A program made the position numbers and the translations under genes. From positions 1,984,001 through 2,048,000 of the forward strand of contig NZ_JANPVN010000001.1 in assembly GCF_026157085.1 (NCBI RefSeq): a DNA stretch of 64,000 nt, read 5' to 3'. This DNA comes from Sphingomicrobium arenosum (GTDB lineage Bacteria; Pseudomonadota; Alphaproteobacteria; Sphingomonadales; Sphingomonadaceae). Below the pieces are notes generated by a model, which was given only the letters and a program-made list of their open reading frames with translations, made no database searches and was not told where the DNA came from. Positions within the stretch are counted from its first letter, which is position 1. Each line of letters opens with the position of its first letter. Positions 4,498 through 10,445 of the stretch are shown here, piece after piece.

Positions 4498-6512
<2,015 letters not shown>

Positions 6513-6535
6513 TTTTCTTTAAACGAAAGTTGAGC

Positions 6536-7615
6536 ATGTCCCATTCCACGCCCCTCATCCTGCTCTCGTCTGGATTGAGAGCACGCTATCGTGAGGATGT
6601 CGTTCGCGCGTTAGCACTGCCAACTGGTAGGAAACTTCAATTCCGATATCGAAAAAGACACATTGAGTCCGCGCTTGTAAAAAACCTAAAGTCTTTGACC
6701 GGTCGGACGGTTTTTATTTGCTACCTGGAATGCTCTGATCCCAATCGTCAGATTCGTTTGCTTCCAGTGAGAAGTGCTAAAATTGGTGCGGTCGAAGCGG
6801 CGGGGGAGAAGTTCATATTTACTCTCATTGTCGAGAAGTACTTCTCTTCTCCAAATGATGCCGCGAAGCTGATTGAAGCTGACAAAAAGTTTAAGGTCCC
6901 GGCTTGGAAAACTCCGGCTGATGGAGGATCGACGTACGCGTCTGGGCTCTGGGCACAGGGTTCAGAGCTTTCTTTGAGCGACTTCGAACTCGTAAAGCAT
7001 AACCGAGACGGTGGTCACTTGCTGGCTTTCGAAAATACTGCGGTTCAACTCGGGGCAACATCAGATTTCTCGTCAGTCGAAGAACGGCTGTTCTTCAATC
7101 TCGTTGCGCTTGAGGAGGCAGGTAAGCGATATGAGTTTGGTCCTTCGCCAACCTTCAAGCGGAATGGTGTTCAGTCGGTTCTGATCCACCATTTGACCCC
7201 CAATATGCCTACCGGTCCGGAGGCTCCCACTCTGTTTCTTAAGTATGCTGTGTTCGGTCACGGCCTTGAGCCCATCCACGGCAACTTATTAAAAATTGAT
7301 AGTGAATACGACCTCAAACGTCTCAGACTCGATGTAAAAAAAGGAGTACGTGACACTATCAACTCCCTATCTATAGGAAGGACTTCTGCATCGAAACCAG
7401 ACGAATTGCAGGACTCTGAGGTTGAGGTCGAGATACGTGTACGAAGCAGTCAATGGAAGGTTCTGCTGAATATCCTATTCATCATGTCAGGGATCGCAGC
7501 TGCAGGTATTGTTGCCGCCGGAAGCTCACTGACCCTAAACAAAGCACTCTTAATTCTTTTCGCCGCTTTCATTGCGGCCGCCTCGAGCGTTTTAGGTTAT
7601 AAGACACGAGCTTGA
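6536..7615 (+). CDS. Membrane-anchored protein of unknown function, first gene of a low-GC two-gene module
   Basis: A 359-residue protein. The soluble N-terminal part (1 to about 305) begins with SSGLRARYREDVVRALALP followed by a basic stretch (FRYRKRH), and I recognise no domain. The C-terminus has two hydrophobic helices (about 310-331 and 336-355) ending in a short KTRA tail, so the soluble part is anchored to the membrane. GC content is visibly lower (near 48%) and codon use richer in A/T than in the flanking thiC and HPF-like genes, which suggests horizontal transfer. The stop codon overlaps the TTG start of the next gene by 4 nt (TTGA), so the two are translationally coupled. A membrane effector paired with a DUF4338 protein is the working inference. 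ATG 6536 was preferred over TTG 6530. Confidence 0.72.
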   Translation: MSHSTPLILLSSGLRARYREDVVRALALPTGRKLQFRYRKRHIESALVKNLKSLTGRTVFICYLECSDPNRQIRLLPVRSAKIGAVEAAGEKFIFTLIVEKYFSSPNDAAKLIEADKKFKVPAWKTPADGGSTYASGLWAQGSELSLSDFELVKHNRDGGHLLAFENTAVQLGATSDFSSVEERLFFNLVALEEAGKRYEFGPSPTFKRNGVQSVLIHHLTPNMPTGPEAPTLFLKYAVFGHGLEPIHGNLLKIDSEYDLKRLRLDVKKGVRDTINSLSIGRTSASKPDELQDSEVEVEIRVRSSQWKVLLNILFIMSGIAAAGIVAAGSSLTLNKALLILFAAFIAAASSVLGYKTRA

Positions 7616-8742
7616 CCTTTCAGGACCACAGAGAGGCCTTCCGAGAATGTTGGGCGAGGGATGTAAGCGGTGCCCGCGTCGCTGATGGGCCCGACAGGTC
7701 AATCGTCCACAAGGCATACGCTCAGAAAATTATCGAGCGAGCTCGCCGGGAATCCGGGTTCTTCGCGCAAACTAAGGGTTTATTTCAATCGTACATAGCA
7801 CAAGGTTCTAGCGTCAGTCCCGAACGAATTTGTCCAAGACTTGTCATCGTGACTGACAATTTTGAAAAGAAGCTTTTCCGGGCAGCCACATCGTATTGGT
7901 CGATCCCCGTCTCACAGGGGTTTGGTCGCCGGATTCGATTCTTAGTCATTGATGAAAATACTGGCTGCCTAATTGGCATTTTCGCAATTGGAGACCCAGT
8001 ATTCAATCTGGCAGCTCGAGATAGGTATATCGATTGGACTTCGGACCAGAGGGTCTCCAGACTTTCATGCGTGATGGACGCGTATGTGCTGGGCGCCCTC
8101 CCGCCATACTCTAGCATTCTCGGAGGAAAGCTGGTCGCGAGTTTGGTCCGCTCGCGCGAAGTGTCTCAAATCTTTGACGCGAAATATGGCAATCGAGAAA
8201 GCATCATCTCGGGTAGGTGCAGTTATAATCGCTTGGCTATGGTTACGGTAAGCTCTGCCTTTGGCAGGTCCTCGTTGTATAATCGACTAAAATTAGATGG
8301 AGATTGGATCTTCCGCTCGGTGGGTTACTCAAAGGGGTGGGGGCATCACCACGTGACCGAAGAAGCCTTTGACCTCGCAAAGAAACTCTTGTCGGCGAAG
8401 CAGTCAAATACGCTTGAAACTTACGAGTTTGGCAAGGGGCCGAATTGGAAAATTCGGGTTCTAAGAGAAGCGATGAAAATTGCGGGTATAGCTAGGAATG
8501 AACTGCTCCACGGAATTCAAAGAGAGGTCTTCGTCTCGGAGTTCGGCGCTAACACTAAAGCCTATTTGTGCGGCCTCGAACATGAGCTCGACAACGAGTC
8601 TCTGTCGTCGGTCGAATGCATTACAAAATCGAGCTTGAGGCGGTGGGTGCTACCAAGAGCGGATCGCAGAAAGGATTTTGTTCTTTCTTCACCGCACGCC
8701 ACAGTTCGCCAAATTGAACGCAACCTTTCACTCTCGGGATAA
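7612..8742 (+). CDS. DUF4338 (DruA-like) protein, second gene of the module
   Basis: A 376-residue protein starting at TTG 7612, overlapping the upstream stop by 4 nt. Residues about 104-250 carry the hallmarks of the DUF4338 family, whose named member is DruA of the Druantia anti-phage system: GRRIRFLVIDENTGCLIGIF, then RDRYIDWTSDQR (137-147), a following VMDAYVLGALPPY segment, and a late GYSKGWGHHH (238-247). The N-terminal 100 residues are basic and helical. There is no large DruE-type helicase or other Druantia gene nearby, so this is not a canonical Druantia locus. GC is low like its partner. Function inferred: nucleic-acid recognition or processing in defence. The family assignment is by eye and not checked by search. 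Confidence 0.75.
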   Translation: MTFQDHREAFRECWARDVSGARVADGPDRSIVHKAYAQKIIERARRESGFFAQTKGLFQSYIAQGSSVSPERICPRLVIVTDNFEKKLFRAATSYWSIPVSQGFGRRIRFLVIDENTGCLIGIFAIGDPVFNLAARDRYIDWTSDQRVSRLSCVMDAYVLGALPPYSSILGGKLVASLVRSREVSQIFDAKYGNRESIISGRCSYNRLAMVTVSSAFGRSSLYNRLKLDGDWIFRSVGYSKGWGHHHVTEEAFDLAKKLLSAKQSNTLETYEFGKGPNWKIRVLREAMKIAGIARNELLHGIQREVFVSEFGANTKAYLCGLEHELDNESLSSVECITKSSLRRWVLPRADRRKDFVLSSPHATVRQIERNLSLSG

Positions 8743-9524: not shown

Positions 9525-9971
9525 CTACCCGCGCCGCGCCACCAACACCCGATCCAGCGCCTGCAGGAACCGGCTCCGATCCGTCTTCGTGAACGGCGGC
9601 GGCCCGCCCCCGATGCCGTCCGCCCCCGCACGCAAATCCGCCATGATCGCCCGCGTCGCGATGGCGCTACCGATATTCCCCGCATCGAACGGCTTGCCGT
9701 TCGGCGCCAGCACCGCCGCGCCCGCCTTGAGGCACCGCTCGGCGAGCAGGATGTCCGCGGTCACCACCACCGCCTCCGGCCCCGCCTTATCCGCGATCCA
9801 GTCGTCGGCGGCATCGAACCCATCGCTGACCACTACGCGGGACACGTCGGGATGATCGGGCACGCGCAAATGGCTGTTCGCCACCACCACGACCTTCGCG
9901 CCGTGCCGCCACGCGACCTTGTAGATCTCGTCCTTCACCGGACAGGCATCGCCATCGACTAGGATCATCAT
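9525..9971 (-). CDS. YaiI/YqxD family protein (UPF0178, DUF188)
   Basis: About 148 residues from ATG 9971, preceded by GGAGGGG; the frame can be extended to 9995. The N-terminus MMILVDGDACPVKDEIYKVAWRH and the later VVTADILLAERCL and GKPFDAGNIGSAIATRAIM are the conserved blocks of this PIN-like family. The Asp residues at the start of the fold suggest metal binding, and the biochemical role is unknown in the literature I recall. Its stop is directly followed by the dispersed repeat, and a 45-nt gap separates it from the upstream osmC. Confidence 0.9.
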   Translation of the reverse strand: MMILVDGDACPVKDEIYKVAWRHGAKVVVVANSHLRVPDHPDVSRVVVSDGFDAADDWIADKAGPEAVVVTADILLAERCLKAGAAVLAPNGKPFDAGNIGSAIATRAIMADLRAGADGIGGGPPPFTKTDRSRFLQALDRVLVARRG

Positions 9972-10016
9972 GCGCCCCTCCATGCCCGGCCCCACCCGCC
10001 AGCGAAAGCCCGCGCC

Positions 10017-10445
10017 TTATTTGAGCGTCGCGTCCAGGGTAATCTCGCAATCCAAGAGCTTGGACAGCGGGCAATTCTCCTTCGCCTCGCCCGCGATCTT
10101 CTGGAAATCCTCATCGCTGATCCCCGGCACCGCCGCCTCCAGCGTCAAGGCCGACTTGGTCACCGTAAACCCCTCGCCGTCCTTCTCCAGCGTCACCTCG
10201 CACTTGGTATCGAGCTGTCCGTCCTCATAACCCGCCTTCGCGAGGCCAAAACTCGTCGCCATGGTGAAACAGGAAGCATGCGCCGCCCCGATCAGTTCCT
10301 CGGGATTGGTCCCCGGCGCATCTTCGAACCGCGTGTTGAACCCATAGGGCTGCGCGTCGAGCGCCCCGCTCTCGGTCCAGATATGCCCCTTGCCATCCTT
10401 GCCCAAGCCCTCATAGCGCGCCGATGCGTGATTGATGGTCGCCAT
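10017..10445 (-). CDS. osmC: OsmC family peroxiredoxin
   Basis: A 142-residue thiol peroxidase that reduces organic hydroperoxides. The sequence follows E. coli OsmC closely, including SGALDAQPYGFNTRFE, GTNPEELIGAAHASCF and the final EITLDATLK. Both redox cysteines are present at the usual positions, C59 and C125 (ENCPLS). It is cytoplasmic with no signal peptide. It forms a minus-strand stress cluster with the flavin-binding protein upstream and YaiI downstream. No operator was recognised. Confidence 0.95.
   Translation of the reverse strand: MATINHASARYEGLGKDGKGHIWTESGALDAQPYGFNTRFEDAPGTNPEELIGAAHASCFTMATSFGLAKAGYEDGQLDTKCEVTLEKDGEGFTVTKSALTLEAAVPGISDEDFQKIAGEAKENCPLSKLLDCEITLDATLK

Follow-up and report, generated by a model that had tools for sequence, protein, structure and literature searches.

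A candidate DruE-less cassette joining a DUF4338 (DruA-family) protein to a putative membrane-anchored protein in Sphingomicrobium arenosum

A stretch of 64,000 nucleotides of Sphingomicrobium arenosum DNA (contig NZ_JANPVN010000001.1, positions 1,984,001 to 2,048,000), here called the window, carries two plus-strand open reading frames (ORFs) between thiC and a gene that we call HPF-like, which is only a label from the first sequence reading of this downstream flank gene. The first ORF, gene X, encodes a putative membrane-anchored protein, and the second encodes a DUF4338 protein of the DruA family. The features of the locus are as follows.

6513..8742, no strand: low-GC inserted block, lying between thiC (stop codon at 6510-6512) and the HPF-like gene
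6536..7615, plus strand: gene X, predicted membrane-anchored protein of 359 amino acids, ATG start, no library family
6542..6997, plus strand: alpha/beta domain of X (residues 3-154), possibly EVE/PUA-like (weak)
7076..7447, plus strand: immunoglobulin (Ig)-like beta sandwich of X (residues 181-304), from the predicted structure
7451..7597, plus strand: predicted two-helix membrane hairpin of X (residues 306-354), from hydropathy and the model, with a short basic tail after it
7612..7615, plus strand: TTGA overlap of the X stop and the DruA start, read from the sequence
7612..8742, plus strand: DruA-family protein (DUF4338) of 376 amino acids, TTG start, from profile matches
7816..8607, plus strand: predicted GNAT fold of DruA (residues 69-332), from the structure model

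An in-frame TTG also lies at 6530, upstream of the X ATG. The overlap agrees with the coupled pair reported in a preliminary description of the locus. The guanine-plus-cytosine (GC) content is 49.0% for X and 50.6% for the DruA gene, against 65.1% for thiC, 64.8% for the HPF-like gene and about 65% in the flanks; the earlier value of about 48% was therefore right in being low and slightly off as a figure. At third codon positions the GC content (GC3) is 0.486 for X and 0.544 for the DruA gene, against 0.871 for thiC and 0.870 for the HPF-like gene, and the pair shows the two lowest values among the 37 window ORFs of at least 250 amino acids, a mechanically chosen set that probably includes some non-genes. 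As seen, both measures differ from the flanks, as expected from the foreign origin proposed before. The block also looks foreign because, among the genomes searched, X and DruA had no match in the rest of the genus. Overall, the computation shows that the X-DruA cassette was horizontally acquired.

No tRNA gene was found in the 64-kilobase (kb) window, the repeats at the block were only short and likely due to chance, and promoter and terminator scans gave scores within the range of shuffled sequences. The HPF-like gene was not within reach at the 25 loci around thiC read in the genus. Since different genes follow thiC in these relatives, a clean empty insertion site could not be defined. Downstream of thiC, three loci (L039, L053 and L054) in two genomes of the same genus (G505 and G529) hold additional, incomplete copies of its 3' end, which perhaps mark insertions there.

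The assignment of the second gene product to DruA/DUF4338 was borne out by profile searches, with PF14236 matching at an E value of 2.3e-72 and 244 bits (curated cut-off, 27) and the PADLOC DruA model (DruA1) at 398 bits. The DUF4338 block RDRYIDWTSDQR is present as previously described, with its start at residue 136 instead of 137. The window's genome (100% complete) holds one DUF4338 gene, and a single-protein scan of genome contigs for DruA gave no match. The structure model predicts a GNAT fold for the window DruA, with acyl-CoA binding and transfer as a putative activity. Residues 164 to 175 resemble what we take to be the GNAT pyrophosphate-binding loop, and Mom of phage Mu is among the structural matches of the model. 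DUF4338 is termed a GNAT domain in the accessible parts of PMC10853773. Coding stretches related to DruA residues 105 to 192 (E values of 4e-6 to 8e-6) also occur in nine Synechococcus phage records.

Next, gene X was compared with sequence and structure libraries. The window protein had no match in Pfam, PADLOC, NCBIfam or PDB sequences, the last of which yielded nothing useful, and the 14 members of the X family had no PADLOC match, no PDB match by profile and a lone, stray Pfam match (L40e, E value of 0.31). A single-sequence search, in which 7998 candidates were scored, returned X alone. A six-frame family search gave the first relative, in genome G166; 13 relatives were found, and none in the plasmids or viral contigs searched. 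The two C-terminal membrane helices noted earlier were predicted here by both hydropathy and modeling, with hydrophobic stretches at residues 307-334 and 325-357 (19-residue windows) and helices at residues 306-328 and 334-354. Hydrophobic stretches and a basic tail end all 14 family members. X is thus predicted to carry both a membrane hairpin and an Ig-like domain. A Foldseek search against viral models gave matches dispersed over sandwich-like and other folds, of which a single row fell below an E value of 0.001, and a THYN1 row appeared among the structural matches of X. An EVE domain at residues 3 to 154 gained no support from profiles: EVE (PF01878) matched none of the 14 members even at an E value of 10, and the hhalign score was 13.4, in a test using only 6 EVE sequences out of 16 EVE places found, when 60 shuffles had a median of 12.1 and reached up to 19.8.

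These matches bear on a modification system, in which DruA would mark host nucleic acid in the fashion of Mom and the N-terminal domain of X would read the mark. The Mom and THYN1 rows are in line with this, as is a weak Mom profile match on a related 303-amino-acid DUF4338 protein (E value of 0.0032, below the Mom cut-off). Nevertheless, none of the 43 DruA proteins searched, that of the window and 42 others, matched Mom (PF25680), and the EVE profile test of X failed. We regard a modification system as highly improbable.

The association of X with DUF4338 is well supported. Genomic context was read for 6 of the 13 relatives, that of the other 7 not being seen, and all six carry a DUF4338 gene on the same contig, at 750, 763, 5282, 10476, 10562 and 20303 bases from X; the link between the two families suggested by the preliminary description was thus recovered. 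As a background, DUF4338 occurs in 5 of 199 family genomes, the window's own genome and G166 counted in. The Fisher test (6/6 versus 3/197) gave a p value of 9e-10, or 1.5e-5 when the relatives were counted as 3 layouts; both values correct incompletely for kinship, as the six relatives are not independent, and use a background sample not matched to Mesorhizobium. In the first layout, found in Parerythrobacter and Qipengyuania, a 303-amino-acid DUF4338 protein is encoded divergently from X. Comparison of the two stretches, of about 19 to 20 kb, gave 2425 aligned bases (72.6%), which comprise only the DUF4338 gene, X and the gene directly before X, here called Y. The Qipengyuania cassette lies near tRNA-Tyr among apparent housekeeping genes. 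In the second layout, in S. canadensis, X heads an operon that ends in a 676-amino-acid DUF4338 protein; the genes between them resemble GHKL-type ATPases, one of them matching MzaB in PADLOC. The Novosphingobium locus is apparently an S. canadensis-type module split by DruE and other genes. In the third layout, in Mesorhizobium, X faces the end of an operon: DruE1 and DruD1 lie next to X (L024), and DruA1 is located at the opposite end of the operon (L091). Operons that combine genes resembling GHKL-type ATPases with a gene for a roughly 675-amino-acid DUF4338 protein recur (L014, L015, L016, L022 and L026); in L014 and L015, the operon adjoins a DruE-like helicase.

Two small coupled genes, and a mobile cassette in which the 303-amino-acid DUF4338 gene is divergent from X in two genomes, might suggest a toxin-antitoxin or self-maintenance pair, with X as a membrane toxin and its GNAT-fold partner as antidote or regulator. 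However, the DUF4338 partner varies in size and gene layout, and X is found next to Druantia-like and other longer operons too. We consider such a pair very unlikely.

Gene Y lies directly before X in all six relatives with context, encoding 84 amino acids in five and 86 in L028, at the following positions.

L024:9725-9979: gene Y, directly before X
L025:9725-9979: gene Y, directly before X
L026:9703-9957: gene Y, directly before X
L027:9729-9983: gene Y, directly before X
L028:9695-9955: gene Y, directly before X
L029:9728-9982: gene Y, directly before X

Identity to the first row is 70 to 99%, and the ratio of nonsynonymous (dN) to synonymous (dS) divergence of Y was low in the two pairs tested. 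Y is absent from four genomes of the genus besides that of the window, and from seven genomes with DUF4338 but without X. Its homologues occur in 41 phage records, which include duplicate entries of one phage and are mostly from Rhizobium and Sinorhizobium phages, and all six Y proteins match PHROG 27874, a family of unknown function in PHROG. Y was also found in 19 viral contigs, with neither X nor DUF4338 within the up to 4 kb read per side. Four Variovorax plasmid records hold a partial Y match (52% of Y, 48% identity), and neither X nor DUF4338 was near it in the one plasmid read; bacterial Y thus also occurs, if only in part, outside X loci. As a guess, Y may be a phage-related bait or antidote. 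The two-component layout proposed earlier stands as regards the coupled pair in the window and falls as a simple two-gene system, given Y before X in the six relatives and the longer operons beside X.

We propose that X-DruA is an acquired, DruE-less cassette of defense type, in which the DUF4338 protein works with X at the membrane, a reading to which we give an even chance. The computation provides the pairing, the transfer, the predicted DruA fold and the predicted hairpin and Ig-like domain of X, and X regularly accompanies DUF4338 proteins. It is very probable that X and DUF4338 function together, and probable that they do so in defense; X as the membrane effector, rather than a sensor or tether, has somewhat less than an even chance. 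The two soluble domains of X would lie in the cytosol and its C-terminal hairpin in the inner membrane, an orientation that we presume, and the GNAT-fold, Mom-like DruA would bind or modify nucleic acid or else a target bound to it. Upon infection, a DruA-dependent signal or mark would engage the soluble domains of X, which would then act at the membrane. None of the three findings that the preliminary description had named as contradicting it, namely a missing DUF4338 match, missing co-occurrence of the families and flank-like composition, appeared when each was looked at.

In itself unlikely, a close rival to this favored reading makes DruA the effector and X a sensor or membrane tether, whose Ig-like domain would recognize a phage protein and bring DruA to DNA entering at the membrane. 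X may be a sensor or tether rather than a killer because both X and DruH are Ig-like; according to the accessible parts of PMC13192584, DruH is the likely sensor of Druantia III, has Ig-like domains and diverges more than DruE. X diverges faster than Y (dN of 0.178 versus 0.066) but no faster than its DUF4338 partner (0.182), and Ig-like folds are very common, with no phage ligand known.

Besides the limits of context, kinship and background given above, several observations weigh against the defense-type cassette. Window X shares an identity of only 22 to 28% with its relatives, the EVE-like reading of its N-terminal domain is weak, Foldseek with the DruA model returned no row below an E value of 0.001, DUF4338 lies 20 kb away from X in Novosphingobium, and the window's genome lacks Y. 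The window DruA has a shorter N terminus and differs at 8 of the 76 near-invariant columns, where 42 others differ at a median of 1 and at most 6. Its branch length is 3.11, the median being 0.29, although the bootstrap of this tree had yet to settle. This strongly diverged copy may be decaying or repurposed. The long branch and altered columns, together with a genome without DruE and Y, would fit a remnant, that is, orphan pieces of a larger Druantia locus whose function has been lost. Nevertheless, the 735 codons of the two frames contain no stop in spite of a very large number of amino-acid changes, the overlap coupling is kept, and Q. vesicularis also has an X-DUF4338 cassette, around which the 19 kb read contain no DruE. 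Decay alone is less likely because these codons are still open across a very large divergence, and we hold a remnant to be quite unlikely. The window copy may be repurposed, since it lacks Y, its DruA has diverged and both genes lie in one overlapping operon.

A broader version of the favored reading, which we regard as quite improbable, would make X a general membrane partner of DUF4338 in DruE-less cassettes, in longer DUF4338 operons and next to Druantia type I-like operons, with Y, in the relatives, as a bait or built-in reference; X and the GNAT-fold DUF4338 protein would then respond at the membrane when the cell detects that a phage interferes with Y.

The antiviral system to which DruA belongs is well known. 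The Druantia, DruA and DUF4338 literature searched, which covers few subscription papers and was accessible in part (including PMC12458937, PMC10853773, PMC11090510, PMC13192584, PMC8565338 and PMC13316683), describes, in the parts accessible, neither X nor a DUF4338 pair lacking DruE, and its Druantia papers, in those parts, give no explanation of DruA's own role. A traveling pair of DUF4338 and one membrane protein, without DruE, would let the job of DruA be tested alone. The X family has no model in the Pfam, PADLOC and NCBIfam libraries as searched, and the phage-like Y next to X relatives is a direct lead to the trigger.

As for known systems, the DruE helicase is common to the Druantia subtypes according to the accessible parts of PMC13192584. 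Its absence here, already noted in the preliminary description, was confirmed: a search loose enough to match 12 of 14 control genomes gave 0 matches in the window's genome, and tblastn of a DruE against the window gave nothing. Since its genome lacks DruE, the window pair is not Druantia as defined. The window DruA is of the same family as that of Druantia type I, as the DruA1 match indicates, whereas DruE is lacking in the window's genome, DruB to DruD are lacking beside the pair, which is flanked by thiC and the HPF-like gene, and X has no PADLOC match. X was also considered as DruD and rejected, as hhalign found no similarity with the DruD-position proteins of L013, which is DruD1, and L002. 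Among DruA relatives at 41 to 44% identity, the gene order is like that of type I in five of the seven contexts read: DruA comes first, then one or more large proteins, then a smaller protein and the helicase, with DruD1 and DruE1 confirmed in L013 and DruE1 in L075. They are type I-like rather than textbook type I because the protein of 948 to 955 amino acids after DruA (L002, L013, L074 and L075) matched no PADLOC model at an E value of 1e-10. A DruA without DruE nearby was observed in L076 (10308-11504, minus strand), facing a 182-amino-acid protein (9753-10301, plus strand) that looks membrane-bound by eye; this DruA groups with that of Mesorhizobium (support, 88/89). Druantia type III has two genes, as the window pair does, and the Ig-like domains of DruH recall the predicted sandwich of X; it differs in having DruE and no DUF4338, and neither X nor DruA matched DruH in PADLOC. 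Finally, although the window DruA is too remote in sequence and matched no Pfam acetyltransferase or Mom profile, its model shares a predicted fold with GNAT acyltransferases and with Mom of phage Mu.
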